Source: Artemia franciscana (taxonomy: Eukaryota > Arthropoda > Branchiopoda > Anostraca > Artemiidae). Taken from it: DNA of 64,000 bases. The notes beneath the pieces are model-generated. The model did no database searches. It saw only the letters and a list, made by a program, of their open reading frames with translations, and was not told the origin of the DNA. Each line of letters opens with the position of its first letter. The first letter of the stretch is position 1. The stretch is taken from assembly GCF_032884065.1 (NCBI RefSeq), contig NC_088871.1:17108472-17172471 (forward strand), in the 5' to 3' direction. Positions 30,416 to 59,974 of this stretch are shown piece by piece. A program made the position numbers and the translations under genes.

Positions 30416-31260
30416 AATTAATCAAACAGTTCACAGTAACAAACTGTAGTAAGGAGCAACCCGGCTCAATAGTAATCAAAACTCTAAAAATTGGAATTTT
30501 GATGCCAATAGTTACATCAAAAGAATCGCATTTTAATGCTGATTTTAAATATATAAGTTTCATTAAGATCAGTTATACCCAACAAAAGTTACGAGCCTGA
30601 GAAAATTTGCCTCATTTTAGAAAATAGGGGGGAAAACCCCCTAAAAGTCATACAATCTTAACGAAATTCACACCATCAGATTCAGCGTATCAGAGAACCG
30701 TATTGTAGAAGTTCCAAGGTCCTATCTACAAAAATGTGGGATTTTGCATTTTATGCCAGAAGACAGATCATGGATGCGTGTTTATTTGTTGGTTTGTTTT
30801 TTTTCCAGGGGTGATTGAATCGACTGAGTGGTCCTAGAATGTCGCAAGAGGGCTCATTCTAACGGAAATTAAAAGTTCTTGTGCCCTTTTTAAGTCCCAG
30901 TGGGAGGGGCTGCAAGTTACAAACTTTGACCTGTGTTTACATATAGTAATGGTTACTGGGAAGTGTACAGACGTTGTACACTTCCATATTATATATTATT
31001 TGCAATATATTATTTCCTATTTTTCGGAACTGTGCCCACTCACAAATGCCTGCCCTGCTCCAAAATAAAATACTGAATGCGTGCCTGGTGAGGGTTATGT
31101 CTTTTTTATTAATATAAAAGCAATTTTAAAAAAGATTGGGATGTATCAAACAGTTCATGATAAAGAACTGTAAGTAAAGCGAGAAGTGGCTGAGTAGTAA
31201 CCAAAATTAAGAAGAGAGTTTTGATAACAATACATGCATCAAAAGAATTAAACTTTTATG
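30416..31260. repeat. Dispersed repeat family A, copies 2 and start of 3
   Basis: 'aaacagttcacagtaacaaactgtag' through 'ctgattttaaatatataagt', 'gagaaaatttgcct', 'cagcgtatcagagaacc' and 'ccaggggtgattgaatcg' define one copy to about 30960. A second begins at about 31137 with 'caaacagttcatgataaaga' and runs into unit 1. The start is itself a small hairpin (CAGTTCACAGTAACAAACTG). No genes. Confidence 0.75.
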
Positions 31261-32498
31261 CTGATTTAAAATATACTTAGTTCTCTAAGTTTAATGTTAC
31301 CCAGGAAAAGTTAAATTCCTGATAAATGTTTCCTGGTTTTTGAAAAAGAGGGAGATAGCTCTAAAAGTCAAAGGATCTTAATAAAAAGCACATAATGAGA
31401 TTCAGCGTATCAGAGAACCCTACTGTAGAGATTTCAAGCTCCTATTCATAAAAATGTGGAATTTTGTATTTTTGCCAGAAAGAAGATTATAGGTGCGTTT
31501 TTACTTGTTGTTGTTTTTATGTTTTGCTTCTTTCCCATGGATGTGCGTGTTGATAGAGGTCTCACTTTATCGGAAATACTAAGCTCTGGTGTCCTTTTAA
31601 AGTAACCAAAAAGATTGGAGGATAGCTAGCCCCCTTCAACTCCCCCTCCCCTTCGAAGTCGTCTGATCTATACTTTATATTCATTTTGTTGAGCATAGTT
31701 AAAACGTCCAATAACTATTCATTTAAAAACGAACCCCCACAGTTTCTGGGGGAAAGGCTGTAAGTTACAAAATTTAATTATTTATGTAAAGTATTTATTA
31801 TTTGGAAGTGTTTAGATATTTTGTGGGGGGGGGATTGGGAATTTTCTGCCTGGGAAATTTTTCATGGTGATAATTTTCTAGGGGTGAGTTTTTCATTGAA
31901 AATGTTTGCACGGGGGAAATTACCAGAATTCCTGCACGAAATTCTGTTGTCACTTTGCCAACTAAATTTAACATACGGATATTTTCCAGGGGAGATTTTA
32001 AGCGTGATTTGAATTATCCGGAGGATTTTTTCATGGGATAGGTGGGATCTAACATGGAAGAAATTCTCCATATGAGAGTTTTCAATGGGAACAACTTTCC
32101 ACTGTGATAGGGAGATTTTCTGGAATATTCTTAAAGGGGGTTTTCTGACAAAGATTTATAAAAATATTTAAACCCAGATATCACTTAAAAAAAATTCAGA
32201 GGGCTACCTCATTGCCAGATAATGGCAACATTCTTAAAAAAGGATAGGAGGGAGGACTGACCTCTTCCCTGATCCTAAATGTGGGTGCCCATGTTTGAGT
32301 TAGCTAATAATGAAAGAATTTTTTTCAAGACCTATTCATATATTTAGTTAGTTTTAGCTAGCTTCCAGGTCCCCCTCACTTACTTTGAAGTGAGTATTAT
32401 CTGCTCAGCCGACAGGGGTGTCATGAAGAGGCCATCTTCACTCATTGTCGCCTGGTTTTGCTAAGATTATCTTTTTTCTGTGCCAAAAACGGATTGGG

Positions 32499-32551
32499 GA
32501 AGATGTTCTTTTTCTCTATACATCCAAATTTACGACAAAAAGAACATCTTC
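32499..32551. other. Stem-loop, 15-bp arms, unit 1
   Basis: GAAGATGTTCTTTTT at 32499-32513 pairs exactly with AAAAAGAACATCTTC at 32537-32551 across a 23-base loop. It lies about 165 bases downstream of the minus-strand CCCH ORF stop, in the expected 3' UTR. The unit 2 counterpart at 47230-47282 keeps the stem, with one pair turned from A-U to G-U (right arm AAAGAGAACATCTTC, if read as plus-strand RNA). Confidence 0.85.
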
Positions 32552-32715
32552 AAGAATGACAAACATAGTATAAAAAAAACACTACCAAAAATCTAAAAAC
32601 TAGCTTAAGCAATAATCAATTTTGATATCCATAAAAACTCAAATTTTTCAAACTAATATAAAAAATATTAAACAAATAATTTAGTATCTGTCAGATCGAA
32701 AAATTATAACTTGTT

Positions 32716-33576
32716 CTAATGAATAAATGCACATTTGTCGTTGTAGCATTCTCTTCCATACTTACAGCGTTTATTTATCAACTTTGCTCTTGGTGTTTTT
32801 TCTGGTCCCCGAACTTGTTTGTTTCTATTGAACTTTATCTGAGGTTGAGAACCTGGGCCACCAGTCCTCCCAGCATGTGTTGCTCTATTTGGTTGGTAAT
32901 TTCTTCTAAAATTGCTGCGATTGAATTTTTCATCATCAGCCAATTTTGATGACTTCTTGTAAAACTCTTTGCCAGGCTTTTCTCTAATATTGACAGGAGG
33001 TCCAAGTCTTTCATAAATACTAATTTGTTCTGTGATTTTGCCATGCTTTTCTTGAATACTTACATGAGGTCCAAGTCTTTCATAAATACTAATTTTTTCT
33101 GTAATTTGGCTATGCTTTTCTTGAATTCTTACATGAGGTCCAAGTCTTTCATAGATACTAATTTTCTTTGCAATTTGCTTGGCAATTTGTCCATTCTTGT
33201 CTCGAAGTCTTGCAAGCCTTTGTCTAAGGCTTTCGTATATGCTCAGTTCTTTCGGTTTGGCAATTTGGCCATCAGTCAATAATTCTCCTGCTGATAAATC
33301 TGCCTCTGATTTGCTTTGTTCTTGCTGATTCGGCGTTTCTTGGGTAGTAGCAACCTGAGCAGTATTCTTTGGTGCAAAACCTGTGCCATTTACCAAAGAA
33401 TACACTGTCTCTGCAAAAAGTTCACTTTTCATTCTCAATCTAAACATCTGTTTTTCTCGTCCTTCTTCGTTGTGGCTTCTAAATGTGTTGTCACCATTAT
33501 AAATTCTGAAGGCTCTTTGCTTGAATATTTCATTTTGCATTTCCAGCATAAATTCTTCAAATGTAACATTTCCCAT
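32716..33576 (-). CDS. Tandem-repeat protein with C-terminal CCCH finger
   Basis: A 286-codon ORF starting MGNVTFEEFMLEMQNE. Residues 1-65 are charged and helical, 65-110 polar. From about 108 come four tandem units of about 23 residues built on (I/L)SIYE(R/S)LGPHV-x-IQEKH-x-QI. A basic region rich in N, R and K follows, and the last 17 residues form a zinc finger of pattern C-x5-C-x4-C-x3-H (CKYGRECYNDKCAFIH), which suggests RNA or DNA binding. I do not recognise the family. It may be the ORF1 of a retroelement, since a similar half-finger occurs in the 811-1005 LINE fragment. No RT follows it. Copies differ mainly at non-synonymous sites, so selection on the protein looks weak. Confidence 0.6.
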   Translation of the reverse strand: MGNVTFEEFMLEMQNEIFKQRAFRIYNGDNTFRSHNEEGREKQMFRLRMKSELFAETVYSLVNGTGFAPKNTAQVATTQETPNQQEQSKSEADLSAGELLTDGQIAKPKELSIYESLRQRLARLRDKNGQIAKQIAKKISIYERLGPHVRIQEKHSQITEKISIYERLGPHVSIQEKHGKITEQISIYERLGPPVNIREKPGKEFYKKSSKLADDEKFNRSNFRRNYQPNRATHAGRTGGPGSQPQIKFNRNKQVRGPEKTPRAKLINKRCKYGRECYNDKCAFIH

Positions 33577-33579
33577 ATT

Positions 33580-36215
33580 CTGATTCTTTTCTATAAAGTA
33601 CTCTTCCTATGCTTTCTAAAAGGATAAATTCTTACAAGTTTTTACGTGTGTACAGCTCTAAAGTTATTTAATAACTGACGCTAATTACAAATGAATTTCA
33701 TTACAAGTTCTCGTGGCACCGCCTACTTTTGAAATTTTTCCAATTACTACGCAATAAGCGGAAATTCCCCAGCCATAGTGGCTGGCTGTACAACCGAATG
33801 GCTGTACAACCGAATCTCATTACGTCAGCAAATTCCTAGGGAATCTTTCGCCTGATTTATAATTCTCATCTTTCAAAGTTTGGCTTAAGAAAATTTTTAT
33901 TCAAAGGGCTATAAGTTTTCAGTTTAATATCATCATATGTGTTTCACAAATAATATTTAATTTTTATCGATATATAGCCTACATTTATGGGCTTTTAAGC
34001 TTGTAGGCTTCAAATCTGACACTACAATTTTAATATAACAGTAGAATTTAAAATGAACTAACTAGATTTTTTACAAAAATTGTTTTATCATCATTGAGGT
34101 TAGTTTTTCAGGATTTCTTAGGCTATTGATTATAAATGTGATAATAAATTTTGGAATGTAAAAGTCAAAATATGCTACTGTTTTTTTGATGACTGCCCCT
34201 CGCCATTTTCAACTATTTTATTATTCTTAATAGTTACTATTGACAAAAAATTAACACCTCTGTTGTTAATATACAAAAATTAAGCCTAACTAAAAACACA
34301 TTCGATAAAAATTTGCAATTAAATCTTTGGTTTCAGTCTCTTAATGTTTTATTTTCTTTCTTTTTTTGTGCTTTAGGCTTCTTTTCTTTTTCTTTGTACT
34401 TTCAGCTTCAGACTTCGGCTATTTTGATTCTCTGTTTTTATGTTCAGTCACTTTTTAGTTTGATTTTATGCATATGTTTTCTCTGTTCTCCATGGCTTTC
34501 ATTTTAAGTTTTCCTATTTCAAAAGCTTTTGTAGTATCGTTTTTTTCTGTATTTTTAAACTAACCTGTTGCAGCAAAGATGGTTTAGCAAAGACCTTTGC
34601 TGAGGTGTCTGCGCTCTGCATTATTGTTGGGATTGTTTAATACAGCCAGTATTGTCTTGGAAATCACACATTTTGACAAACTTCCAGCCTCCTATCCCCA
34701 ATATCTCAAGATCCGTATAGTTTTCCTATCTGTTAACTATTTTTGCCGTTATTTTTTGGTGTCTCGATTTTTTTTGCATTTTAACCATTCAGTCACCCTC
34801 CTCCTCCAGAAATTAACAATCCTCCATTTTAAAGCAACCTAAATCTGAATTTTGTTTTCTTTTTTTTATTGTAATTTCAGAAATATATAACAATGTTTAG
34901 TTTTCAATAATTTTTAGCTATATATATATTCTGGAACTGTTTCTTTTGGACTATTAAAGAGTAGCATTGAACAATTTGTTTAGGCTTGTGTCAATATCTT
35001 CAAATAAAAAAATAAAAAATATTCAAAGCAGGGACGATTTCGTTAGACCCGTAGTTTCTCGCCTCTTGTTGTTATAAAAACTTAACCTAAAGGATCTTTT
35101 AAAGCCACTATTCCTCAGTCATTTGACTATCAGTCATTTTAACTATGCCCAATTATCTCAGTTATTCTACGCAATTGTTCCTGCTTTTGTCTACACACTA
35201 ATTTATATGAAAAGAATTTGTACTTATCGGTTATATAGTAAACACTATTGATCGCGAATGATGCGAACATGACACAAGAAACTGGTCAAGCATTTTATTA
35301 TGTATTTAGTCAGTATTTTGGTTTGGTTAGGTTACATATTTAATATATGCTATTCTTCAACCCACCTCCCCCCCCCTAATCTGCAAATATATAGCCTAAA
35401 CTGTTTCCTAAACCATTGTATGTTTCATATTTTGTTTGATTTCATTAACATTAATCAAATTTCACTTCCCGAGTGTTTATTATATAACTGATAAGTATTA
35501 TTTTGACCTTTATATGATCTGTATGCACGGTCGCCATCCCTAGGGATGTATCACTATTTCTAGTGATTTTTTTTTATATCTCAACATCCTCATCTCAAAG
35601 ATCCTCAACAACAAAACAAATCTAAATTAGAACATAAATGACCTGATTATTGAAGAAAATCACTAATTCCACCAATAAATTACGAAAAACTAGTGTTTTC
35701 TTTTTTCACCGGGGGGCAAATCTGTATGATTGGATAGCAACAATACAAATCTTGCCCAAATCAGGAAACTATTTAAGACTTCTCTAGTAAATTCGGGTGC
35801 TTTCTATATTACTCACATTGCTTTGGGGTTTTGACCTCCTCCTACCTCCTTATGAAAGAAAGAGTTCGTCTATTTAGCTAGGAACGAAAAAAATTAGGCC
35901 ATGGATAAATGTTTAAAAAGACTGCATCTTGATGCCTATGCTTCGACAATTGAAGTTGTGTGAGGGAATTTTCAACCGTGCATAGGATAAATTCATTGGT
36001 ACAGGCGAATATTGAATAATGTAGGAACATCGTAAAAACACACATATTTTAGAAACTTCACAGATTTCAAAAAGTCAAAAAAAAATTTTTTTTTGCCTAT
36101 TTACGGTTACCATAAGGTTGCTGTAATGTTATTAAGAATATTTTAAACCTTATACATTCTTTGAATTTCTTGTTAATACTTTTTTTTAGTGAATTGATGA
36201 TTGGACAAGTTCCAG
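33580..36215. other. Non-coding stretch between divergent ORF and helicase exon, unit 1
   Basis: No gene recognised; open frames at 34313-34507, 34597-34842 and 35300-35491 are T-rich and unconvincing. It contains a 16-bp tandem duplication (GGCTGTACAACCGAAT at 33784-33799 and 33800-33815; single copy in unit 2), a short palindrome at 34586-34601 and the sequence also present at 28590-29292. The CCCH ORF and the helicase are divergent, so a shared upstream region would lie here. Confidence 0.5.
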
Positions 36216-36429
36216 ATTTCGTGGTAGAAGAGGCCGTGGGAGAAGGGGTCGTGGTGGTAGAAAAGGGCCATTGGATGATTCGTAATCAGCTAGTGAGACG
36301 ACTGAGCCAGAGCGTGGTGGGGTAACCTATATTCCAGAGAAGGAGGAAGAAACCGATGAGCTCGGTTTTTAAATAATTTTTAAAACTCGGTGAATAAATT
36401 TTAGCAAATTTTCAAATGTAGCAGCCAAG
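36216..36429 (+). pseudogene. vasa-like RNA helicase, RGG exon, unit 1
   Basis: Following a CCAG acceptor, the reading FRGRRGRGRRGRGGRKGPLD gives the Arg/Gly-rich tail of a vasa-type DEAD-box helicase. After an in-frame TAA it continues SASETTEPERGGVTYIPE, matching the vasa linker before the Q motif (x-x-Y-I-P-x-E). The part that in unit 2 reads TAGINFSKFSNVAAK is scrambled here: a stop follows at DELGF and the bases around 36360-36400 differ. The donor AAG/GTTAGT is intact at 36430. vasa unwinds germline RNAs. This copy cannot encode a working protein. Confidence 0.8.
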
Positions 36430-37399
36430 GTTAGTCTTTTTGGGACCTGTACTTCGCTTCGCTCAGTGAAAATAAATTCTCTATTCTCTTTCTCAAAATA
36501 AATTCAATTTCACACTAAATTGCGGTGTAGAAAGTAAAACCATTAGTAAAACATTGGACGTTTGGTTTTTTTACGCGTCATTTATATGAAAATTATTCTC
36601 TAAAATTAATCAAGGTCCTAAGGGAACATCCCCAAAGTTGTGACCTATTTGCATCGTTTCTTTATTATTACTGTATTTTTTCTGCTCCTGAGCATTTAAT
36701 GCGAAGCAAATAAGAATCTGAGACTCGTCACAGCTATTAAACAAGAATGTCTCTCTCTAAAAGCTCGGATTTGTCAATAAACAAATTTAGTTTTGTTACT
36801 CCTACATAATTATGTTTTTTTTTTTTACTTGAATATGTCTCTTGACAACTAATAGGAAGAAATTAATAGGAAGAAATTTTTCATATAGACTGTTGCCTAA
36901 ATTGAAAAACTGCATCCTTTTCTTGTCATCACATTTTTCTTCTAGGACTATTCACCCTTCTCGACCTCGTCTCCAAAAAAAGCTCTGGTTTTTTAGTTTA
37001 TATTAAATACTGTTAAAAAAGGAGCATCTAGAGGAATTTAATAGTCTTAGTTTTACTTTTGATGAACGAATTGTTACAAAAATGTAAATTTTTAACTTTT
37101 AAGTACTTATTTAAGTAATTATTTCGAATCTAAGTACTAAGTTTCTCATGTGACTTATATTATTAATTTAGTTATTAATTACTGTGACTTTTTTCCATTG
37201 CTTTTTTGTAAGTATAATTAAGACCCCTCCTCCCCTAATACTAGTCACTTTATTCCCTTTTATTTCAAAGTAAATGTTCTTATGATGCTCATGACCAGAT
37301 TCTAACTGAGTAACTCTATATGTCGGGAATAATGTCTAGTCTAGAATATTGTTATATTGTAAGTTAAATTATTAATCCTCCTTGTATTGGATTTTATAG

Positions 37400-38774
<1,375 letters not shown>

Positions 38775-40443
38775 CTAGACCTACGTTGCCTGGGCAACGT
38801 GAAGTGTTGCGGCAACCTTTGTCCGGTTTCGCTGATAAAAGTGTTGCGAGAGCAACACTTTGGTTTTGTTTCTTCGCTATCGGTTAAATTCTGAAGTTGT
38901 CAAAACTATCAAAGCATTCAAAACGGCATATTCAAAGCAGAACACAATCAGTAATCACATGATCAAGTTCTTCAGCGTTGAAAAAACAACAGCAAAAGAA
39001 TATCGGAAGAAGGGACTAAATTGAGTTTGCAGCCAGTTGAACTTTATCCTTTTCAATCGTAGACATCGTGACCGATGGAAACTTGGAACATTATCTTATA
39101 TAATCTAGTTGGTATTATAAAGCTATTCGTGACTTTTCAGGATCAAATACCATAGATGTGCACCAATTTGCACAAATTTTTAGCCTCTGATGAACCTCCT
39201 CTAGCAACCGATTCTTACTTACAAGTCCCTCTCCCGTGATATACATCCAAGTTCACCGGAAACAAATAATGGGTACACCAACTAGCAAAAGTTGCAAACC
39301 CCTTGTCGCTGAAGTCATTGTAGCCTAACAGCCGATTATTACTTACAACTCCCCTACATGTCTTACAATCGGGAACCAAGTTGTTCTTACCATCAATTAC
39401 ACCAGAAACAGATAATAGGTACACCAATCAGCAAAAGTTGCAAACCCCTCATTGCCAAAGATGATTATAAGCTAATAATCGACTGTTGCTTGGAAGTCCC
39501 CTACATATCTCACAATTGGTATCGGCCTATTTTTGGTTCAAGTGTGTACCTTACCACTGAAGTTGTCAACCCCTTGAAACTTTCAAACTGGTGTATGTCA
39601 TGAAGGAATTTTTGTAACAAAAAATGGATGACATATACTTTGATCAGCTCATCAAGGTCTATCGATTCTCATTGAAAAAAAATTCTATCTGTCTTAGTTC
39701 AAAAATTGACTTTTTTGCCGGAGGCCAACTTTCTAACACCACCACTTAGAAAGGAGCAAAGGATAAGCTCTAATTTCTTTAGCAATGAGAGAACTTTTAA
39801 AGTTTAAGAGGTATATCTGATACCATTTCTCTATTGCAATCCCAAGTAGAAAAAAGAAAGGATGGTAAAGTCAGCTGAAATCACGAACAGAAATGGCTAG
39901 AAACAATAGATGGCAGCACTTTTGGACCCGTGGGAAAATCGCACTTTTTTGTTTCTGTAAATTTTTATATTTATCACTCAAAGAAGATATATTGGCTGTG
40001 GGGCCGGGGAACTACCGCATATATTTAACACTTATAGATTTTAGTCCATCTTCAATTTGAAACTGGTGCCTGCCTGCTAGCCTGCTAGAACGGAGCTTTC
40101 CACTCGAAAGCAGAAACATGGTTTGATGAAACGAAAGCTTGGCTGCACAACTTCAGATACTCCTCTCTGACATGGGCTATATAACTCCACTTCACTTCGC
40201 ACACCATAGGCTCTGGCTCGAGGACAAGCAAAAACCATCCTTTTTGGCCCCAGGCAAGAGTTCTACGGAGCTTTCCAAAATGTAATGTCATATTCATCAA
40301 TCCGGCCTGAGGTCCACACTTTCCGTAAAAACCGGACAGGTTAGACCCTTACCAGTTTCCAGGAATAAGCTGAGATCGGCGGCATAGGAAAAAAAAAAAA
40401 AAAAAAACCGGGACAAAACCAAAGTGTTGCTCTCGCAACACAA
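38775..40443 (-). mobile_element. Non-autonomous Helitron-like insertion, 1.67 kb
   Basis: The element lies in AAATAAA/TAATCG. The unit 2 sequence at 56351-56363 is the uninterrupted site, so the ends are precise: no target duplication, inserted between A and T as read on the minus strand. That strand ends ...CGTTGCC CA GGCAACG TAGGT CTAG then T: a 7-bp hairpin 9 bases before CTAG, the Helitron 3' signature (CTRR). The 5' end starts TTGTGTTGC rather than the usual TC and forms its own hairpin GTGTTGC-GAGA-GCAACAC. A perfect 29-bp inverted repeat joins 38841-38869 to 40413-40441. No Rep/helicase is encoded; the content is low-coding. Confidence 0.75.
39160..39560. repeat. Three diverged tandem units, about 110-120 bp, inside the Helitron-like element
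   Basis: Each unit carries 'caccaa(c/t)..agcaaaagttgcaaacccct', a variable 'aagtcattgtagcctaa'-like step, 'ccgattattacttacaa' and 'tcccctacatgtctta'. Starts near 39160, 39270 and 39420. Internal tandem repeats are common in non-autonomous Helitrons. The minus-strand open frame (39427-39215) across them is not conserved between units. Confidence 0.65.
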
Positions 40444-41000
40444 TAATCGAAAAATATAAAACCACAAATTAAAATGAGTGGTGAAATATTATCAGAATGA
40501 TTTTCTGTATTGCTGTGTTGCTCTGGGGTTGTATGGCTGTAGCTTGTTGCAGTGCCGGTGTTTTTCACAATGCTGTTTCGTTTTTCTAAAGTTGAAGCGT
40601 CATCTTGGAGCTTATCAAAGAGCTTTCTTGGTTTGTCATTTTCTCTTGTTCTTCCTAGTCGCCTAGTCTCAATAAAATCCTTGATTTTTAAGTTGGCACC
40701 TAAGCTGTTCTTTTGGCAAGGTTCAATGATTACTTGTGACTATTACATTAAGATTATCAGACTCGGGAATTTCTGGTAAGACCAAGTTACGTCGCTTTTC
40801 TTCCTGTAATTGCTTCTCCTTTTCAGCTAATAGAAGCGTTTCGATTGGGTTGATTGCGTAGGCTGCGGTTGGTATGCTTGCACCAAAACCGACTGCTCCA
40901 TTTTGTGCCACATGGGAATACAGTGCTTGATCGCCAGAATTTGGAATTGATCGTCCCTGTTCATTTGAGTTGATGGTTTTCGTGCGATCTGCCATTATCC
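40444..41000 (-). pseudogene. LINE ORF1-like gene, unit 1 (frame-broken)
   Basis: Copy of the 56406-56909 gene. Open from the MADRTKTINSNEQGRSIPNS start near 40998. It runs through the PIETLLLAEKEKQ coiled coil and RNLVLPEIPESDNLNVI, then breaks where two bases are missing ('gtgactattac' against 'gtgactctattac'). Sequence encoding the RLGR region follows out of frame, with further changes. The Helitron-like insertion ends just downstream. Confidence 0.65.
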
Positions 41001-42390
41001 TAACTTGTAGCTGCAGATGGGCTACATTCTGCTTGGAGCAGGAGTGACACATGCTCAGGAGAAATGGAACCACTTCGTGCAGGTACGGCATTGAATTCCG
41101 CCTTGAGCTCTTGTAACATTTTTCTTACATTTGGGACATGGATCACCAGCCATTTCTCAGAAAAATCGTGTATATTTTTGTTTCACTATTCCGCAATCAG
41201 TTCGCTTGCAAGCACAAGTCGCTGCCTGAAGGAAAGGTTAATAAAAATCCAAGAATGTCTATTTCAAGTGCGCGCGCCGAGCGCTGAATGAATACTCAAG
41301 CTACTGAAATCACCCTGGAACAAGCGAAGCGTAAGGACCCTCTCACCTATTCCACGAAATATACGGGTATCTAAATACCGGTGGGGGACAGTGCGGTGCT
41401 CCCGGAGGGTTCTTTCCTCTCTTCTGCTTGTTCTGAGGAAAAATCAGCATCTTAATGAATGGAGGAAAGAAACAACTATATGATTTCGGAAATATAGATG
41501 GCGAGCCAGTTTACTTGAGAAAAAAGATGGCGCTAATGAAACTACCCATAGAGAAAGACCTATTCTAGGGACTAGAGAAATTCTCTCAAATAAATTTAAC
41601 TATAAATCTATCATTAGAGGGCACATAAACTATCATTAGAGGCTATAATTAGCAATTTTGAATTAAAGGTTGATATTATCTGCATGTTGAACCAGAGATA
41701 CAATTTGAACTGCTTTATTTTAGATGATTTGAACTCTTTTATATCAAGAAATAAAATTGCTTGAAATAAATTTTTTTTTTGAAAAAAAAATTATTCAGTT
41801 GCCAGTCCGTTGGAATGTTCAGCTGTGAATTTATGTTTTTGCCAGAGATGAGATAATCCAAAGAATGAATTTAACTTACAAGAGTGGAACCCGGTGCAAG
41901 TGTCGAAAATAACGTCAATGCTATCTAGCTTATGGCGTCTCATGGAATTTTGTCAAGTTTTGTAATCAGTGAAGATGTTTGAGGTGGAATAACCAAGGCC
42001 CAGGGTGCTTTTTTTGCAATTTAAGAAGTTTGAAAGAACAGGAAGATAAGTTTGGGAGCCAAGATTTGAATATTCAAAGCTACAGTAGTCAAATATGATT
42101 CTGAAACATGGGTCCTGGCTAGACGGATGAGGATTCCTTGGGTGTTTTTCACAATTGGCTCCGAACTCTTTTAGGTATCCACCTGACCGACCGTATTTCA
42201 AACTTTAATGTATAAAGAAAAATGTGTTCTATCCCACTTTCTAGGGATGTGATGAGAGGAAGTTGGAGATGGGACAAGATTTGCGGATGAAGGAGGGCAG
42301 ATTCTCAAAGAGCGTCTTTGTTGGCCAATCATTTGTCAATCGAAATGCAGGTCGTCCCCAAATGTGATCATCGGGGAGGTGTTAATAAAG

Positions 42391-42393
<3 letters not shown>
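41001..42393. other. Shared sequence upstream of the ORF1-like gene, unit 1
   Basis: Collinear with 56910-58660. Contains a minus-strand open frame at 42201-41953 that is conserved in unit 2 (58497-58249) with few changes, starting MKYGRSGGYLKEF and containing several Cys (NCEKHP, DPCF, FDYCSF, NFLNCKK). I do not recognise it. Conservation may only reflect recent duplication. Otherwise no gene. Confidence 0.45.

Positions 42394-42463
<70 letters not shown>
42394..42463. repeat. Poly-T tract of 70 bases
   Basis: Seventy consecutive T on the plus strand, 150 bp before the helicase exon. The unit 2 counterpart (59946-59974) has 29 T, so the tract changed length after duplication. Confidence 0.95.
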
Positions 42464-42466
<3 letters not shown>

Positions 42467-42615
42467 TAACGAGACTCACCTATTTGGATCGTATGGTAAA
42501 AATTATTCAAAAGCTTTACTAACCTTTTAACTCTTGTTAATAAGTAATTTCTTAAAAGCTTTATAATTTTAATGATTCCTTTTAGTTTACTAATTGATTT
42601 TCTCTCCTTTTTTAG

Positions 42616-42783
42616 ATATAAAGGGCGTTGGACTAGTCATCAACTATGAATTACCCACAGATATTGACGAATATGTGTATCGGAAGAACGAGTCGCCTTG
42701 GTAATACTGGGCGTACTATATCATTTTTCAACCCAGATAAGGATTCTGCAATTGCCGGGAAGCTGGTCAATGTTCTTGCTGCG
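42616..42783 (+). pseudogene. vasa-like helicase, motif V/VI exon, unit 1
   Basis: Acceptor CCTTTTTTAG, then IKGVGLVINYELPTDIDEYV (with the Asp split across the junction) gives motif V and its following region. The frame then slips and continues IGRTSRLGNTGRTISFFNPD and KDSAIAGKLVNVLAA, ending at donor GCG/GTAAAT. Compared with the DEAD-box motif VI H-R-I-G-R-T-G-R, five bases encoding the H-R part are missing, which shifts the frame. Splice sites are intact. Family: vasa/DDX3 (SIDEYVHRIGRTGR...GNTG-x-x-x-SFF). Residue choice favours vasa with the unit's RGG exon. Confidence 0.88.
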
Positions 42784-43984
42784 GTAAATGTTTTTCATTT
42801 CCCTCTCTTTTTTCTTTATCCCTCCTTTAACCTGTCTTCATTTTCTCCTTTACATTTTTCTCAAATTTTCGTTGTTTATCTTTCTCACTTTCTCTTTCTT
42901 CGTTTGTTCGTTTTTGATTGGTGCTAATGTATGACCATTCCATAAGGAAAAATAAACTTGGCAGCATGTTTTTCCTTTCCAAAAGAAATATATTGTCATG
43001 CTAATTGTGAAAGACATTCAACATACATTCAATTCTGGTAATGAATATTTTAGTGAATTTGTCAAATTATATATTGATAGTTATTATTATTTAATTATAG
43101 AATCTTCTTGATTACTGATTTTACATGTTAGTACGTCTATCCGAGATTTTAGTATTATATATGCAAGTTAGATCTGGGAAGAGAATGAAAGTTTATTCGA
43201 AGTCAAATATTCCGGTTAAATTTACAAGGATATGGATCCAATTGAGAGGAAAGGGTCTATCGGGGGGGGGGGGAGGAGCAACTTTAAGAAATTTATGGGA
43301 AGTATAGAAGCAAAGAGTAATTACCCGTTGTGCAATGCGGAGGAGGGTGTATTGGGCCATTTTCTTCCGAGGTCCCGCTAGCCATCTCAGATTAGTGCCA
43401 ATGGGCTGGAATGAAATTTTGATTATGGTACTTCTTGGTATTCTTACATCAACAATTCCATGGTGGTAAATTTTGTGTTGAAGGCAATAGAGATTAGGCA
43501 CTGGCATGGCAATTAGAGATTCATAGTGTTATGATCAGATTTTAATGCATTTGTATTTAGACGAATATAATGACGACTTATGTATATGGCCCTCAGCTCT
43601 TCCAATACTAATTATATGCATATTATTATATTGGAAACTCTCTATTTAAAGATTATCATTAACACGTTAAAGTGACAGGATAAAGATAAGTGGCAAGAGC
43701 ATAATGTGTGGTTTTAGAATACGGTTTAATTCCTTGTACTAAACAGGATTCGATACCTTAAATGATCACCTTATCTCGCCCATTATACGTTTTCTTAGTT
43801 TTTGTGGCCAATTCTTGTTCTTCTTTTTGAAATGTAGTCATTCTTCATTCTTTTTTAAGTTCAAGAAAGGGCAATCCCTAAGATGTTCTTGCAGACTTGT
43901 CAGGAAAACTTTGAAAATTTGGTGAAATGAAAAATCATCTGTGCAAAGCTTTGCGAGTCCAGTGTAGTGCTACCTGCTTTGATT
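42784..43984. other. Intron-like sequence after the motif VI exon, unit 1
   Basis: Collinear with 60269-61465 with scattered substitutions and small indels, including a G12 tract near 43261. No exon with the helicase C-terminal end was found. Confidence 0.5.
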
Positions 43985-45400
43985 AATTTCTGTCATTTTA
44001 AATCCCGACCGGACTTGGTGACTTTGGGGGGAGTTGGGAGGGGGGCTAAAATTTTGGAAAACGCTTAGAGTGGAGGGATCGAGATGAAACTTGGTGGTAA
44101 AAATAAGAGCAAGTCCTAGATATGTGATTGAAATAACTAGACCGGATCTGCCCTCTTTGAGGGAGTTGGGGGCGGGGGGGGGCTATTTCTGAAAAACTAG
44201 AAAAAATGAGTTATTTTTTACTTACGAAGGAGTGATCGGATCTTAATGATATTTGATGCTTGGAAGGATATCATGTCTCATAGTTTTTATTTGAAATCCA
44301 GACTGGATTCGGTGACATTGGGGGGAGTTGGGGGGGGGACCTAAAATCTTGGAAAACGCTTAGAGTAGAGGGATCAGGATGAAACTTGGTGGAAAAATAA
44401 TCACAAGTCCAAGATAAGTGATTGACATAACCGGAACGGATCCACTCTCTTTGGGGGTTTGGGGGGAGGATTAATTCTGAAAATTAGAAAGAATGAGGTA
44501 TTTTTAACTTACGAAGGAGTGATCGGATCTTAATGAAATTTGATGTTTGGAAGGATATCGTGTCTCAAAGCTCTTATTTGAGATCCCGATTGGATCTGGT
44601 GAAATAGGGGGGAGTCGGTGGGGGGGCTAAAATCGTGGAAAACGCTTAGAGTGGAGGGATGGGGATGAGACTTGGTGGGGAAAATAAGCAAAAGTCCTAG
44701 ATACGTGATTGACATAACCGGAACGGATCCTCTCTCTTTGGGGCAGTTGGGGGGAGGGTTAATTCTAAAAAATTAGAAAAAATGAGAGTAAAATGATAGG
44801 GAAGAATAACCACAAGTTATAGATACGAAATTGACATAATTGGAACGGATCCGTTCTCTTTGGGGGAGCTGGGGTTTGTTAATTTGGAAAAATTAGGTAT
44901 CTTCATCTTAAGAACGGGTGACCGAATCTTAATGAAATTTGATATTTAGAACGAACTCATGTCTCAGAGCTCTTATTTTAAATCCCGACTAGATCTGTTG
45001 ACATTGGGGATGGCTGGAGGGGGAAACTGGAAATCTTGGAAAAACACTTATAAATGTCGTAGATATGTGATTGACATAACCGGACTGGATCTGCTCTCTT
45101 TGGAGGAGTTAGGGGGTGGGGCTCAGTGCTTTGGCGGGTTTGGTGCTTTTGGACGTACTATGACGATGAAAATTGGTAGGCGTATCAGGGAGCTGCACAA
45201 ATTGACTTGATAAAGTCGTTTTCCCAGATTCGACCATCTAATGGGCTGAAGGGAGAGGAAAAAATAGAAAAAATAGAGCTATTTTTAACTTACGAACGGG
45301 TGATCGCATCTTAATGAATTTTGATATTTAGAAGGACCTCGTGACTCAGATCTCTTAATTTAAATCCCGAATGGCTTTAACCCTCTGATTTACCCGTTTA
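43985..45400. repeat. G-rich tandem array, about 288-bp unit (unit 1)
   Basis: 'cttacgaaggagtgatcgg' recurs at 44219 and 44509 (period 290), then diverged units follow to about 45300. Each unit carries 'aatgaaatttgatgtttgg', 'aggatatcgtgtctca', 'aaatcccgaccggat', 'tggggggagttgggggg', 'ttggaaaacgcttagagtgg' and 'gtgattgacataaccggaac'. No conserved reading frame. The repeated G-runs are spaced closely enough to form quadruplexes. Confidence 0.92.
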
Positions 45401-45994
45401 ATGCCAATTTAAAATAAACATAGTTCTCTAAGTTTAATGTTACCCAGGAAAAGTTACATTCCTGAGAAAGTTTTTGTGATTTTTGAAAAAGGGGGAAATA
45501 GCTCCAAAACGTCAAAAGATCTTAATAAAAATCACATAATGACATTCAGTATATCAGAGAACCCTACTGTAGAGATTTCAAGCTCTTATTCATAAAAATG
45601 TTGAATTTTGTATTTTTGCCAGAAAAAAGATTATAGTTATGTTTTTACTTGTTGTTGTTTTTATGTTTTGCTTCTTTCCCATGGATGCGCGTTTTTATAG
45701 AGGGATCACTTGATTGGAAATACTAAGCTCTTTTGTCCTTCTTAAGTAATAAAAAAGATTGGATGATAGCTAGCCCCGTCCAACTTCCCCCCCCCCCCCC
45801 TTCGAAGTCGTCCGATCTATACTTTATAGTCATTTTTTTCATCATAGTTAAAACTAACTATTCATTTGTTGATCAAACGAACCCCCACAATTTCTGGGGA
45901 AAAGGCTGTAAGTTACAAAATTTACCTTTTTATGTATAGTATTTGTTATTTGGAAGTGTTTAGACATTTTTTTTGGGGGGGGGGATTGGATTTA

Positions 45995-46515
45995 ATTCCT
46001 CCCAAAAAAATAAACTTTTTAATAGGTCTCCAGAAACTGCATCTGCTTGTCTTCCTAGATTTGTCGCTCAGCATTCGTTATCCCGGCTATTAAAAGGCGG
46101 TATATTTTCTTTCTAGAAATAGTGAACGTGAGTGGATTGCAAAAATGTTCCACGAAAATAAGTTGACTGAACTAAAAAAATGCTTACACCGCTTACTAGC
46201 AGTAATTTATTTAGCTCACATTTTTGAAATGTTTTGATTTTTTAAAACGATTCGTAATTATATGTTTAGGCCAACATTTTTTTTTTCTACTACAGATTAT
46301 GGACGGCCATGCCTTGAGTTTGGACATCCATGCTTTGAGTTTGGACAGCCAGGGGCGTATGTAGGGGGTTAAAAAGAAATCCTGAATTTCTTTCAATTTC
46401 TGGGTACTTTCTATTCAAATTATCAAATTTTTTATACCCCCCCCCCCCCTCTCCAGAAAAGATAAAATCCAGTGTGTGCGTCTATTGACGGCCTAAGATG
46501 TTTTTCCTAAGATGT
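45995..46515. other. Sequence private to unit 2, with a hAT-like end
   Basis: Unit 1 passes directly from 'ggggggattggg' to 'aattttctgcctggg' (about 31830). Unit 2 repeats the 'tatttggaagtgtttagac' lead on both sides of this block (45950 and 46522), so the block arose by insertion with flanking duplication. It contains a hAT-like terminus, CAGGGGCGTATGTAG, at 46350 and 2.5 direct copies of a 21-base unit (CATGC(C/T)TTGAGTTTGGACA) at about 46308-46352. No gene. Confidence 0.6.
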
Positions 46516-47229
46516 TTTAGTATTTATTATTTGGAAGTATATAGACATTTTTGTGGGGGACATTGGGAATTTTCTGCCTGGGAAAATTTTATGGTGATAA
46601 TTCCCTTGGGGTGAGCTTTCCGGGGAAAATGTTTATACTGGTGAAATTACGAGCATTCCTCCACGAAATTATTTTTTCACTTTGCCTTTGCTGACTAAAT
46701 TTAACGTATGGATATTTTCCAGGGGAGATTTTAAGTGTGATTGGAATTATCTGGAGGATTTTTCTATGAGATGGGGGGATCTAACATGGTAGAAATTCTC
46801 CATATGAGAGTTTTCCATGGGAACAACTTTCCACAGTGATTGGGAGATTTTCTGGAATATTCTTAAAGGGGGTTTTCTGACAAGATTTATAAAAATATTT
46901 AAACCCAGATATCACTTAGGAAAATTTAGAGGGCTACCTCATTGCCAGATAATGGCAACATTATTAAAAAAGGATAGGAGGGAGGACTGGCCTCTTCCCT
47001 GATCCTAAATGTGGGTGCCGATGTTTGAGTTAGCTAATAATGAAATAATTTTTTTTCAAGACCTATTCATATATTTAGTTAGTTTTAGCTAGCTTCCAGG
47101 TCCCCCTCACTTACTTTGAAGTGAGTATTATTTGCTCAGCCGACAGGGGTGTCATGAAGAGGCTATCTTCACTCATTGTCGCCTGGTTTTGCTAAAATTA
47201 TCTTTTTTCTGTGCCAAAAACGAATTGGG

Positions 47230-47282
47230 GAAGATGTTCTTTTTCTCTATACATCAAAATTTACGACAAAGAGAACATCTTC
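47230..47282. other. Stem-loop, unit 2 counterpart
   Basis: Same hairpin as at 32499-32551: left arm unchanged, right arm with one A-to-G change that still permits a wobble pair in plus-strand RNA. On the minus strand the change gives A-C instead, so the apparent conservation supports a role only if the plus strand is transcribed. Confidence 0.8.
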
Positions 47283-47454
47283 AAGAATGACAAACATAGT
47301 ATAAAAAAACACTACCAAGAATCTAAAAACTAGCTTAAGCAATAATCAATTTTGATATCCATAAAAACTCGAATTTTTCAAACTAACATAAAAGAATATT
47401 AAACAAATAATTTATTATCTGTCAGATCGAAAAATTATAACTTGTTCTAATGAA

Positions 47455-48306
47455 TAAATGCACATTTGTTGTTGTAACATTCTCTTCCATACTTACAGCG
47501 TTTATTTATCAACTTTGCTCTTTGTGTTTTTTCTGGTCCCCGAACTTGTTTGTTTCTATTGAACTTATCTGAGGTTGAGAACCTGGGCCACCAGTCCTCC
47601 CAGCATGTATTGCTCTATTTGGTTGGTAATTTCTTCTAAAATTGCTGCGATTGAATTTTTCATCATCAGCCAATTTTGATGACTTCTTGTAAAACTCTTT
47701 GCCAGGCTTTTCTCTAATATTGACAGGAGGTCCAAGTCTTTCATAAATACTAATTTGTTCTGTAATTTGGCCATGCTTTTCTTGAATACTTACATGAGGT
47801 CCAAGTCTTTCATAAATACTAATTTTTTCTATAATTTGGCTATGCTTTTCTTGAATTCTTACATGAGGTCCAAGTCTTTCATAGATACTAATTTTCTTTG
47901 CAATTTGCTTGGCAATTTGTCCATTCTTGTCTCGAAGTCTTTCAAGCCTTTTTCTAAGGCTTTCGTATATGCTCAGTTCTTTCGGTTTGGCAATTTGGCC
48001 ATCAGTCAATAATTCTCCTGCTGATAAATCTGCCTCTGATTTGCTTTGTTCTTGCTGATTCGGCGTTTCTTGGGTAGTAGCAACCTGAGCAGTATTCTTT
48101 GGTGTAAAACCTGTGCCATTTACCAAAAAATACACTGTCTCTGCAAAAAGTTCACTTTTCATTCTCAATCTAAACATCTGTTTTTCTCGTCCTTCTTCGT
48201 TGTGGCTTCTAAATGTGTTGTCACCATTATAAATTCTGAAGGCTCTTTGCTTGTATATTTCATTTCGCATTTCCAGCATAAATTCTTCAAATGTAACATT
48301 TCCCAT
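47455..48306 (-). pseudogene. Frame-shifted copy of the CCCH repeat protein
   Basis: The unit 2 copy is open for 265 codons from 48306. It keeps the N-terminus, the four SIYE repeats and the basic region. A one-base loss near 47569 ('gaacttatctg' against 'gaactttatctg' in unit 1) then puts the last part out of frame and deletes the CCCH finger from the product, stopping at 47509. The bases that would encode the finger are still present downstream (about 47455-47510) with an added change. Of about 14 substitutions against unit 1, I judge about 11 to alter a residue. Confidence 0.7.
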
Positions 48307-48357
48307 ATTCTGATTCTTTTCTATAAAGTACTCTTCCTATGCTTTCTAAAAGGATAA

Positions 48358-50525
48358 ATTCTTACAAGTCTTTACGTGTGTACAGCTCTAAAGTCATTTA
48401 ATAACTGACGCTAATTACAAATGAATTTCATTACAAGTTCTCGTGGCACCGCCTACTTTTGAAATTTTTCCAATTACTACGCAATAAGCGGAAATTCCCC
48501 AGCCATAGTGGCTGGCTGTACAACCGAATCTCATTACGTCAGCAAATTCCTAGGGAATCTTTCGCCTGATTTATAATTCTCATCTTTCAAAGTTTGGCTT
48601 AAGAAAATTTTTATTCAAAGGGCTATAAGTTTTCAGTTTAATATCATCATATGTGTTTCACAAATAATATTTAATTAATATTAACGTGTACATTTATGGG
48701 CTTTTAAGCTTGTAGACTTCAAATCTGAGACTACAATTTTAATATAACAGTACAATTTAAAATGAACTAAGTAGATTTTTTACAAAAATTGTTTTATCAT
48801 CATTGAAGTTAGTTTTTCAGGATTTCTTAGGCTATTGATTATAAATGTGATAATAAACTTTGGAATGCAAAAGTCAAAATATGCTACTGTTTTTTTGATG
48901 ACTGCCCCTCACCATTTTCTACTATTTTATTAATCTTAATAGTTATAATTGTCAAAACATTAACACCTCAGTTGTTAATATACAAAAATTAAGCCTCACT
49001 AAAAACACATTCGATAAAAATTTGCAATTAAATCTTTGGTTTCAGTCTCTTAATGTTTTATTTTCTTTCTTTTTTTGTGCTTTAGGCTTCTTTTCTTTTT
49101 CTTTGTACTTTCACCTTCAGACTTCGGCTATTTTGATTCTCTGTTTTTATGTTCAGTCACTTTTTAGTTTGATTTTATGCATATGTTTTCTCTGTTCTCC
49201 ATGGCTTTCATTTTAAGTTTTTCTGTTTTAAAAGCTTTTGTAGTATCGTTTTTTTTCTGTATTTTTAAACTAACCTGTTGCAGCAAAGATGGTTTAGCAA
49301 AGGTTTCTAACCAGTGAAGCGCTTGCTTCACTGGTTAGAAGTTTATCTTTCATTATTGTTGGGATTGTTTAATACAGCCAGTATTGTCTTGGAAATCACG
49401 CATTTGGACAAACTTCCAGCCTCCTATCCCCAATATCTCAAGATCCATATAGTTTTCCTATCTGTTAACTATTTTTGCCGTTATTTTTCGGTGTCTCGAT
49501 TTTTTTTTTGCATTTTAACCATTCAGTCCCCCTCCTCCTCCTCCTGTTGGACCCGTAGTTTCTCGCCGCTTTTTGTTATAAAAACTTAACCTAAAGGATC
49601 TTTTAAAGCCACTATTCCTCAGTTATTTGACTATGAGTCATTTTAACTATGCCCAATTATCTCAGTTATTCTATTCTTGGTATATGGTATCCTTCAACCC
49701 CCCCCCCCCTAATCTGCAAATATATAGCCTAAACTGTTTTCTAAACTATTATATTTTTCATATTTTGTTTCATTAACATTAATCAAGTTTCACTTCCCGA
49801 GTGTTTATTATATAACTGATAAGTATTATTTTGACCTTTATATGATCTGTATGCACAGTCGCCATCCCTAGGGATGTATCACTATTTCTAGTGATTTTTT
49901 TTATAGAGCCTCAACAACAACAAAAAAAATCTAAATTAGAACATAAATGACCTGATTATTGAAGAAAATCACTAATTCCACCAATAAATCACGAAAATCT
50001 AGTGTTTTCTTTTTTCACCGGGTGGCAAATCTGTATGATTGGATAGCAAAAATACAAATCTTGCCCAAATCAGGAAACTATTTAAGACTTCTCTAGTAAA
50101 TTCGGGTGCTTTTTATATTACTCACATTGCTTTGGGGTTCTGACATCCTCCTACCTCCTTATGAAAGAAAGAGTTCGTCTATTTAGCTAAGAACGAAAAA
50201 AATTAGGCCATGGGTAAATGTTGAAAAAGACTGCATCTTGATGCCTATGCTTCGGCAATTGAAGTTGTGTGAGGGAATTTACAATCGTGCATAGGATAAA
50301 TTCATTGATACAGGCGAATATTGGATAATGTAGGGACATCGTAAAAACACACATATTTTAGAAACGTCACAGATTTCAAAAAATCAAAAAAAAACTTTTT
50401 TTAGCCTATTTACGGTTACCATAAGGTTGCTGTAATGTTATTAAGAATATTTTAAACCTTATACATTCTTTGGATTTTTTGTTAATACTTTTATTTTCGT
50501 GAATTTATGATTGGACAAGTTCCAG
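48358..50525. other. Non-coding stretch between divergent ORF and helicase exon, unit 2
   Basis: Collinear with 33628-36215 except for two deletions and the hairpin at 49305. No gene recognised. C11 run near 49700. Confidence 0.5.
49305..49340. other. Perfect hairpin, 16-bp arms, private to unit 2
   Basis: TTCTAACCAGTGAAGC and GCTTCACTGGTTAGAA with loop GCTT. Unit 1 has a different short palindrome at the same place (34586-34601: AGCAAAG AC CTTTGCT). The flanks (GGTTTAGCAAAG and CATTATTGTTGGG) are shared. Confidence 0.85.
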
Positions 50526-50733
50526 ATTTTGTGTTAGAAGAGGCCGTGGGGGAAGGGGTTGTGGTGGTAGAAAAGGGCCATTGGATGATTCGTAATCAGC
50601 TAGCGAGACGACTGAGCCAGAGCGTGGTGGAGTAACCTATATTCCAGAGGAGGAAGAAACCGATGTGCTCCTTTTTCACCGAGGAACTACTGCTGGAATA
50701 AATTTTAGCAAATTTTCAAATGTAGCAGCCAAG
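50526..50733 (+). pseudogene. vasa-like helicase, RGG exon, unit 2
   Basis: More complete than the unit 1 copy. After CCAG it reads an Arg/Gly stretch (RGRGGRGGRKGPLDDS-like, with one R/C or V change), the same in-frame TAA as unit 1, then SASETTEPERGGVTYIPEEE, TDVLLFHRGTTAGINFSKFS and NVAAK, ending at AAG/GTTAGT. The G-I-N-F-x-K-(F/Y) motif followed by (V)-x-V is the vasa/DDX3 lead into the Q-motif exon. No Q-motif exon follows in unit 2; the Penelope block sits there instead. Confidence 0.82.
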
Positions 50734-51369
50734 GTTAGTCTTTTTGGGACCTGTACTTCGCTTCGCTCAGTGAAAATAAATCTCTATTCTCTTTCTCAAA
50801 ATAAATTCAATTTCATACTATTTTGCGGTGTAGAAAGTAAAACCATTAGTAAAACATTGGACGTTTGGGTTTTTTACGCGTCATTTATATGAAAATTATT
50901 CTCTAAAATTAATCGATATCCTAAGGGAACATCCCCAAAGTTGTGACCTATTTGCATCGTTTCTTTATTATTACTGTATTTTTTCTGCTCCTGAGCATTC
51001 AATGCGAAGCAAATAAGAATCTGAGACTCGTCACAGCTATTAAACAAGAATGTCTCTCTCTAAAAGCTCGGATTTGTCAATAAATAAATTTAGTTTTGTT
51101 ACTCCTACATAATTATGTGTTTTTTTTTTGTTTTTTTTTAACTTGAATATGTCTCTTGACAACTTGCTCTTATAGCGAAGAGGAAGGAAGCCGTTGTCTT
51201 TTCAAAAAATTTGGGATCGGGATCTTGAAATCCCGTTCCTTAATTTATATTCTTTGCTTTGAGCGGCCAATGTTGTTTGTGGAATTATCTAAAGGCCTTT
51301 TATTTCCTCTTTTCAAGAGTTGGAGCTTAGGGGCGTAATTTTCTATGTGACGGGGGGTAACTGCCATAA

Positions 51370-51486
51370 TAATATTTTCCAGGAAAAGTTGAGGTCTACA
51401 ATTCAAGACTTTAAATCATCTGATTAAAGATAAAAGGAGAAAAAGAGCTTTATTAGTGAAAGATAAACTTTTCCCGGAAAATATTA
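51370..51486. repeat. 21-bp inverted repeat before the Penelope element
   Basis: The arm TAATATTTTCC-AGGAAAAGTT (51370-51390) and its partner (51466-51486) match at 20 of 21 positions in opposite orientation, about 75 bp apart. Penelope elements often carry an inverted repeat next to their terminal repeats, so this may mark the 5' end of the element below. Confidence 0.6.
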
Positions 51487-51499
51487 TATAAAAAAAGGT

Positions 51500-52315
51500 G
51501 AGTGCAAGTGATTTTGTGTTTTATTCAACAAACAGCAAGATATCATTTCAATCATGACTTTCACCTTTCCAGAAAAAAATTACTTAAAAAGTTTTCAAAA
51601 TTATCTGAAAATAAAGTCGTACTTCGTCAACTCTTGGACCAGGTGCAATTAATTTTTCATCAAGGACCTGAACGTGACAAGAAAAGTCCGTATTAGAAAA
51701 AGGTCCAAAATTTTGGTTTAAAACTAATAAAGTCCCAGTAGAAGAAATTATCTCTTCAGTAGAAACATATTTACATAGAAACCCGATCCTAATCAAAGTT
51801 TTTAGTCTAGTAGGAGCTTCTACAGTTAAAACCCTGTCAGAGTTTGCTTTAAAACCAGAAATCCCTAACAATTCTATCAAAGACATAAATATTCTTAATA
51901 ATTTAAGAAGGGATGAATCTATTATTATTACAAAAGCAGACAATGGACACCAAGGACTACGACTCACAATTAAACGCTTCACTGAAAGATGAAAAAACGT
52001 ACAAACAACTTTCTTTTGACCCGACGGACTTATACACAAAGAAGTTTAAGAACGAGTTAAAGAGTTTGAAGGAAGAAGGGAAGATTACACCTCAACTTTT
52101 CTACAAATTCTTCCAAGAGTTTCTTTGTGCCCTAAATTATATGGACTTCCAAAGATACATAAGCCAAATCTGCCGATACGACCAATTGTTGTGAGTAACA
52201 AGTCACCAACAAGTGGTCTGAGTAAGTGGCTAGTGTCATTATGTAAACCACTCATGTCTACACAAATTTCTTACATTAAGAATTTGTCAGAACTTGTAAA
52301 AAAAAACTAAAAGAA
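51500..52315 (+). pseudogene. Penelope-like element, N-terminal part of RT (frame-broken)
   Basis: Read through several frames: FHLSRKKLLKKFSKLSENK (51502-51696); then VPVEEIISSVETYLHR and NLRRDESIIITKADNGH, the 'x-x-I-I-x-x-A-D-(K)-G' motif that precedes RT in Penelope-like elements; then DPTDLYTKKFKNELKSL. Next comes YGLPKIHKPNLPIRPIVVSN followed by KSPTSGLSKWLVSLCKPLMS (52140-52260), which is the Penelope finger region. At least three frame changes separate these, so the N-terminal half is dead. Confidence 0.85.
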
Positions 52316-52357
52316 GTTGAGATTTCTTCAAATTCTATAATTTCAAGTTTCGACATA

Positions 52358-53179: not shown

Positions 53180-53216
53180 GTAGCTTTAAGAGGTAGTAAT
53201 ACTTTGGCTAGTTTTT

Positions 53217-55605: not shown

Positions 55606-55607
55606 TT

Positions 55608-56132
55608 CTGGAAAGGATCGGAGTTCCGTAGAGCAACAAAGTGGGGTTTATAAAATCCCATGTACTTGTGGAAGCTCTTATGTGGGACGTACTAACTAGA
55701 ATTTAAAAACGAGATTGCTACAACATCATAATTCTATTTCATCGTCTTTAAAGCAAAATACCAAAACCTGAAGATTTCACGTCGGCCCTCTCGGAGCATA
55801 TCTTTAATTTTCCAAATCATTTTATTTTGTTTGAAAATGTTTCTTTGATTTCTAGGGACCAAGGTTTAAAGCAAACTTTCAGGGAAACAATCGAAATTAA
55901 AAAAATTCTATTCAAGAATAATTCCATAAACAGAGATACAGGTGAATTTGGATTGGACTCAATTTATGATAATTTACTGAGGTCAAATAAAGTAAATATC
56001 ACCTCACCTAAGAGCTATGACCTCTGTCCACGTAATATGTCAGATAATTCTAATGAACCGGAACCAAAAAGGTCAAAGAGATTTGCCTCGGCTGTTGCAT
56101 TGAAAAAAATAAGAGCAATAAACTATGTGTAA
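55608..56132 (+). pseudogene. Penelope-like element, GIY-YIG endonuclease
   Basis: After the insertion the reading resumes GVYKIPCTCGSSYVGRTN, a GIY-YIG motif written GVY...YVG. An in-frame TAG follows. Another frame then gives TSALSEHIFNFPNHFILFEN (the S-A-L-x-E-H motif) and, in the open frame from 55827, FRETIEIKKILF, with the catalytic Glu region, and SINRDTGEFGLDSIYDNLL. This nuclease nicks target DNA for Penelope insertion. Its fusion with this type of RT is diagnostic for the family. A trailer without genes follows to about 56270, ending 'caataaaaaggtatcat'. Confidence 0.88.
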
Positions 56133-59905: not shown

Positions 59906-59945
59906 TCAATCATCAGGGAGGTGTTAATGAAGAGCAATTTTAATG

Positions 59946-59974
59946 TTTTTTTTTTTTTTTTTTTTTTTTTTTTT
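59946..59974. repeat. Poly-T tract of 29 bases
   Basis: Counterpart of the 70-T tract at 42394-42463, in the same position ahead of the motif VI exon. Confidence 0.95.

Follow-up and report, generated by a model that had tools for sequence, protein, structure and literature searches.

A segment of the Artemia franciscana genome with the end anatomy of non-autonomous Helitron2/Helentron transposons and an empty paralogous site

Results

The locus and its empty paralogous site

The window analysed here is a stretch of 64,000 nucleotides from contig NC_088871.1 of the Artemia franciscana assembly, with a G+C content of about 35%; the available text of the genome report gives 34.7-34.9% G+C and 8.81% Helitrons (PMC11492255). 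A tandem duplication occupies much of the window, with one unit at 31254-45240 (14 kb) and the other at 45397-64000, where it runs to the window end.

Several further features lie in the window. The duplicated region as a whole (31254-64000) is about 87-96% identical piecewise and holds several copy-specific insertions; both units contain one of a pair of ORFs with 69-bp internal repeats (32716-33576, 286 aa, and 47509-48306, 265 aa), for which no Pfam match was found. ORF 52358-53179 gave a reverse-transcriptase match (RVT_1) and, by its look, presumably represents a Penelope-type element. ORF 18204-19754 contains an RNase H domain and shows 85-98% identity to four A. franciscana proteins, each alignment covering 18-24% of the ORF, among 89 hits; three further relatives, at 77-95%, were seen for ORF 56406-56909, which lies beside the insertion site in the duplicated unit. 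An AT microsatellite at 4935-5002 appears as a 68-bp perfect palindrome.

The segment 38775-40443 is present in copy 1 of the duplication and has no counterpart in copy 2. Its parts, read on the minus strand as the element strand, and the two sites elsewhere in the window that bear on it are as follows.

38775-40443, minus strand: putative non-autonomous Helentron/Helitron2-type element (HINE), 1,669 bp as given with limits uncertain by 2 nt, recognized from the empty paralogous site and the end anatomy
38775-38778, minus strand: CTAG at the 3' terminus; the next two bases on the element strand are TT
38779-38783, minus strand: 5-nt spacer
38784-38799, minus strand: 3' terminal hairpin CGTTGCC-CA-GGCAACG, CGTTGCCTGGGCAACG
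38802-38820, minus strand: outer, decayed 3' subTIR (GTGTTGC-G-GCAAC) adjoining the 3' hairpin; at this position the palindrome of the relative at 3967 is intact and four bases longer
38841-38869, minus strand: inner 3' subTIR, which repeats the 5' end in inverted orientation over 29 bp without mismatch and lies 66 bp from the end marked by CTAG
39201-39519, no strand assigned: degenerate central repeats (39248-39372 vs. 39394-39519 at 77%, 146 bp from start to start), with shorter blocks occurring three times
40389-40407, minus strand: T19 homopolymer (element strand) immediately internal to the 5' subTIR, a place at which a microsatellite is common in HINEs/DINEs
40413-40441, minus strand: 5' terminal ATIR/subTIR, the first 18 bases of which form a hairpin with a 7-bp stem, GTGTTGC-GAGA-GCAACAC
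56312-56440, plus strand: paralogous site without the insertion, located in copy 2 of the segmental tandem duplication
3967-4025, minus strand: diverged 3' end of a related element, with AA-CTAG, spacer, 3' hairpin remnant and an intact palindromic subTIR, GTGTTGCAGGAGCAACAC

The 46-bp left flank of the segment (38729-38774) is 97.8% identical to 56312-56357, and the right flank (40442-41761) is 94.3% identical to 56356-57662; fusing both flanks regenerates the paralogue without a gap across the junction. These matches bear out the original prediction that unit 2 preserves the pre-insertion sequence. The left flank match extends for only 46 bp: BLAST detected no homology between the units to the left of 38729/56312, back to 36850/51164, i.e. 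none between 36850-38729 and 51164-56312.

The dinucleotide AA is found at both junctions (38773-38774 and 40442-40443), which corresponds to TT on the element strand, so that the ends can slide by 2 nt. On the element strand the equivalent placements (^ marks the boundaries) are A^TTGTGTTGC...CTAG^T, T^TGTGTTGC...CTAGT^T and TT^GTGTTGC...CTAGTT^T, and a fourth is GTGTTGC...CTAG with a 2-bp TT duplication on its flanks. Because AA stands at both junctions of this single insertion, A^T insertion, T^T insertion and a 2-bp duplication are all compatible with the site. It had been proposed that the element sits between A and T without target duplication; the A^T position stands as allowed, but as one of four equivalent placements. 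At the one empty site no target duplication of more than 2 bp is seen, and a 2-bp TT duplication would look the same there as TT that is part of the element. The pre-insertion site reads ATTATTTATTTT on the element strand and would fit a TT or T-rich target (n = 1).

Anatomy of the two ends and the interior

At the 5' end, the element strand reads (TT)GTGTTGCGAGAGCAACACTTTGGTTTTGT, and the hairpin begins 0-2 nt from the element end. The terminus is a hairpin and not TC, as had been noted from the sequence: every placement starts with TT, TG or GT, and the 61 bases on the 5' side give a z of -4.15 in DNA folding, with 1 of 200 shuffles as good. The description of the opposite end also holds, in that the minus strand ends in hairpin-N5-CTAG, and the perfect inverted repeat proposed to link the two end regions is complete, 38841-38869 and 40413-40441 pairing at 29/29 positions. 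Base shuffling of the element (300 shuffles) yielded perfect inverted repeats of at most 20 bp (mean 11.1) vs. the 29 bp observed.

Folding of the 101 bases on the 3' side gave z = -4.57, none of 200 shuffles being as good; in a fold of the last 52 bases (38775-38826), an alternative structure is favoured over the expected 3' hairpin (z = -2.51; 3/200 shuffles). Hairpins preceding CTAG were counted at 21 places in our scan vs. 3-13 in 20 dinucleotide shuffles, many of the 21 being repeats of one another, and this count was given no weight as evidence.

The 29-bp copy at 38841 begins exactly at the sequence of the 5' terminus, and 38841 was considered as the 5' end of a second, oppositely oriented element. 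That candidate was rejected, and the 3' subTIR assignment of 38841-38869 is preferred, because the copy is preceded by AAAA and not by the Ts of a Helentron 5' flank.

The central repeats are absent, as a tandem array, from the TRF list at score 30. ORFs of at least 30 codons in or overlapping the element number 34, and the five of them that were scanned against Pfam gave no match at E 0.1; the element therefore reads as non-autonomous (HINE). Short regular expressions, which are not a profile search, detected neither Rep nor helicase motifs in the six frames of the window. Searches of IMG/VR returned no match to the exact 23-base subTIR and none to a degenerate Rep motif sought as a Helentron protein query; a 25-base version of the subTIR had no match in GTDB genomes, as expected for a eukaryotic element.

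A diverged relative of the 3' end

The 3' end at 3967-4025 aligns locally with the focal 3' end at a score of 57 vs. a maximum of 45 among 1,935 sampled 121-base segments of the window (none reaching 57), a comparison that is post hoc, 3967 having been picked for a palindrome match with two mismatches and the longer stretch then tested. The 1,935 segments remained of 2,000 draws after 65 near the focal element or the relative had been dropped. The homology ends at AA-CTAG, the boundary also given by the empty site, and the focal 3' end is supported because the homology halts at this same point.

The 3' hairpin of the relative is not intact, and its best fold places a stem over CTAG (z = -4.10); no 5' end of the relative was found. 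An inverted repeat at 3959-3989 (10/11; CCATAGGCAAC / GTTGTCTATGG) spans its CTAG end and extends into the presumed flank.

The intact palindromic subTIR of the relative directly adjoins the hairpin remnant and scores 37 against the focal outer copy vs. 31 against the inner copy, a modest gap between pieces of unequal length. The aligned (outer) focal copy lacks four of its bases, and the perfect 29-bp inner copy lies 37 bp further in. The inner perfect subTIR may be a replacement or a secondary copy, a lead drawn from two sequences.

Other HINE-like ends in the window

We found 5' ends of another type at 53219 (GGCACTTGGTATTAACCAAGTGACATATAG) and 61860 (two differences), each preceded by TTTTTAT and leading into a short run of GTCG/GTCT, with fold z values of -6.42 and -4.36, respectively. 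Satellite-like repeats occur downstream of them (5.1 copies of 288 bp at 62069-63538; 1.9 copies of 160 bp at 54786-55082), and related satellite repeats are present at 43995-44786 (2.7 copies of 287 bp). The stretch 53212-55492 comprises the 5' hairpin GGCACTTGGTATTAACCAAGTG at 53219, GTCG/GTCT and then satellite-like repeats, broken at ~53789-54030 by another repeat, and it lies within the portion of unit 2 that lacks a counterpart in unit 1; the stretch 61860-64000 comprises the second copy of this 5' end with its 5.1 tandem 288-bp repeats, and continues beyond the window. No convincing 3' end of this type was found in the window: the best inverted matches are 8/10 after 53219, at 55570 and equally at 56695, and 7/10 after 61860. 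The resemblance of the two ends to described oyster HINEs suggests that such elements are common around the focal one.

Discussion

Our analysis indicates that the segment is very probably a non-autonomous rolling-circle transposon of the Helitron2/Helentron group (HINE), inserted in minus-strand orientation. A 5' hairpin, an inverted copy of it in subterminal position at the opposite end and then a 3' hairpin constitute the ATIR/subTIR layout described in the available portions of PMC3627910 and PMC4067079; the 5' and 3' ends match published Helitron2/Helentron anatomy, and some distances and the arm length are outside the published ranges. Also in favour of this assignment are TT at the two junctions, the degenerate central repeats and the homopolymer near the 5' end, the related 3' end at 3967, the two further HINE-like 5' ends and the reported Helitron content of the genome; the out-of-range values, the alternative fold of the last 52 bases and the imperfect 3' hairpin of the relative count against it. 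The original prediction of a Helitron-like, non-autonomous element was broadly right, on the evidence of this end layout and of the five scanned ORFs without a family match. Its view of the 5' hairpin, the internal inverted repeat and the 3' CTAG as an unusual mix was not supported: a 5' terminal hairpin, subterminal inverted repeats and a 3' hairpin have been published for Helitron2/Helentron/HINE elements, TT...CTAG ends for proto-Helentron-Pi, and CTAG with subterminal inverted repeats for Hel-2.

An overlapping interpretation takes the segment as a proto-Helentron type, with an enzyme of the same Helentron clade, TT...CTAG ends and A/T insertion as in Phytophthora infestans. The terminal letters are identical and A^T is among the allowed placements; however, the Phytophthora ends are described as resembling those of typical Helitrons, whereas the focal element has the Helentron/Helitron2 ATIR layout. 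We consider this interpretation unlikely. Far less probable is a derivative of a canonical Helitron (Helitron1) whose 5' TC was lost or mutated: CTAG fits the CTRR of Helitron1 and one placement is an A^T insertion, but TC stands at the 5' end in no placement, and the 3' hairpin is 5 nt from the end and not 10-12 nt. Moreover, Helitron1, as characterized in the portion of PMC3627910 available, has neither a 5' terminal hairpin nor an inverted repeat common to both end regions; the element has both, and the Helitron1 origin was rejected on these two features. A cut-and-paste MITE or foldback element would have perfect inverted repeats, as seen here with 29 bp, and could account for a 2-bp duplication, but hairpins are present at both ends and one arm starts 66 bp inside the limits set by the empty site, so that only one of the two repeats is terminal; this reading was rejected on the internal arm, and we give it slightly less credence still. 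Least credible is that no insertion took place and the paralogue lost the segment by deletion. The 2-bp AA microhomology at the junctions would speak for a deletion; against it, the breakpoints coincide with hairpin-CTAG and with the terminal hairpin, which is not expected of a chance deletion, and the relative at 3967 ends at the same letters.

For the HINE assignment, a mobilization pathway can be sketched from the known properties of the family. Rep/Helicase would be supplied in trans from an autonomous relative at another genomic locus and would recognize the 5' hairpin on one side and the 3' subTIR and hairpin on the other, the hairpins and paired subTIRs serving as recognition and stop signals; the enzyme would nick the ends, displace a single strand and ligate this strand into a T-rich target, with a duplication of at most 2 bp. 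The rolling-circle step and the single-strand intermediate would likewise follow from family membership. The ends are compatible with a Helentron partner (with endonuclease) or a Helitron2 partner (without), between which the ends themselves cannot tell.

The decayed outer subTIR beside a perfect inner one admits a further, tentative explanation, namely that the element renewed a worn-out 3' end by a fresh inverted copy of its 5' end; we regard such renewal as rather doubtful. If it did occur, the pairing of the two subTIRs would be under selection and could be rebuilt by copying the 5' end, either by fold-back synthesis or by conversion while the intermediate is single-stranded. ATIR pairing has a proposed role in terminating rolling-circle replication, and renewal of this kind would put that role to a natural test. 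Across copies, the idea of ATIR pairing could become testable through the double 3' subTIR.

One full copy, the focal element, was seen within the window. A distinct non-autonomous family is plausible at the level of sequence, and its status is supported because one diverged 3' end is present at 3967-4025; the element probably represents a new family of a well-described kind, which leaves the picture of the group unchanged. Among the matches listed in our literature search, none joined Artemia with Helentron, DINE-1 or Helitron2, and papers joining Artemia with 'HINE' were, by title, on other subjects. The locus offers an insertion with a relative date, since it is missing from the second copy of a tandem duplication (94.3% identity next to the insertion), and it defines the ends of a HINE-type family within a genome whose report, in the text available, assigns 8.81% to Helitrons (PMC11492255).

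Comparison with known systems

The comparisons that follow rest on the portions of the cited papers that were available. In HINEs, according to Thomas and co-workers (PMC4067079), the subTIRs are palindromic and lie 2-4 nt from the 5' end, the 3' end bears a palindrome, TT flanks the element and the target is left unmodified. The HINE/DINE-1-like element HINE-Mo of the mite Metaseiulus occidentalis (PMC4067079) is similar to the focal element in its palindromic subTIRs a few nucleotides from the 5' end and its 3' palindrome, and also in having no coding capacity (5 of 34 ORFs scanned in the focal element), TT flanks, central repeats and microsatellites (T19 in the focal element); microsatellites are reported in HINEs by both PMC4067079 and PMC7492417. 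The focal element differs from HINE-Mo by its extra, decayed outer subTIR, and ends in CTAG, the last letters of HINE-Mo being outside the comparison. The distances differ as well: the 3' subTIR, a perfect copy in the focal element, is 66 bp from the end vs. 38-60 bp in HINE-Mo and 20-30 bp in Helitron2; the inverted-repeat arms are 29 bp vs. 12-15 bp in HINE-Mo and 8-15 bp in published elements; and the 3' hairpin is 5 nt from the end (counted from CTAG) vs. 8-35 bp in HINEs and 10-12 in Helitrons.

Helitron2, as defined by Bao and Jurka (PMC3627910), has a hairpin at either end; its 5' ATIR lies 0-2 bp from the 5' terminus and contributes to the 5' hairpin, and its 3' ATIR precedes the 3' hairpin. 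The focal element shares this arrangement, and in two of its placements the 5' T, whereas its ATIR is longer and lies farther in; the Helitron-1N1_CRe target, TTTT^T/C, is not an exact match to the focal ATTATTTATTTT on the element strand. The papers on Fusarium Helitron2 (PMC5148889) and the oyster HINE (PMC7492417) are in keeping with this anatomy.

Proto-Helentron-Pi of Phytophthora infestans (PMC4067079), which carries 5' TT and 3' CTAG and is inserted between A and T, shares these terminal letters with the focal element and, in one of its placements, the A^T position, but is an autonomous element of ~14 kb with Helitron-like ends by description. The lepidopteran Hel-2 elements, which combine CTAG, subterminal inverted repeats and a microsatellite (PMC4344730), come close in another way: BmHel-2 and OnHel-2 are also non-autonomous, with a 3' hairpin followed by CTAG, a 5' inverted repeat, subterminal inverted repeats and a repeat tract downstream of the 5' repeat, and differ in their 5' TC and CTGT microsatellite. 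Cg_HINE of Crassostrea gigas (PMC7492417), set beside the focal element by description, shares the subTIR, the 3' palindrome and the central tandem repeats; its GTCY-type microsatellite resembles the window ends at 53219 and 61860, whereas the focal element has T19.
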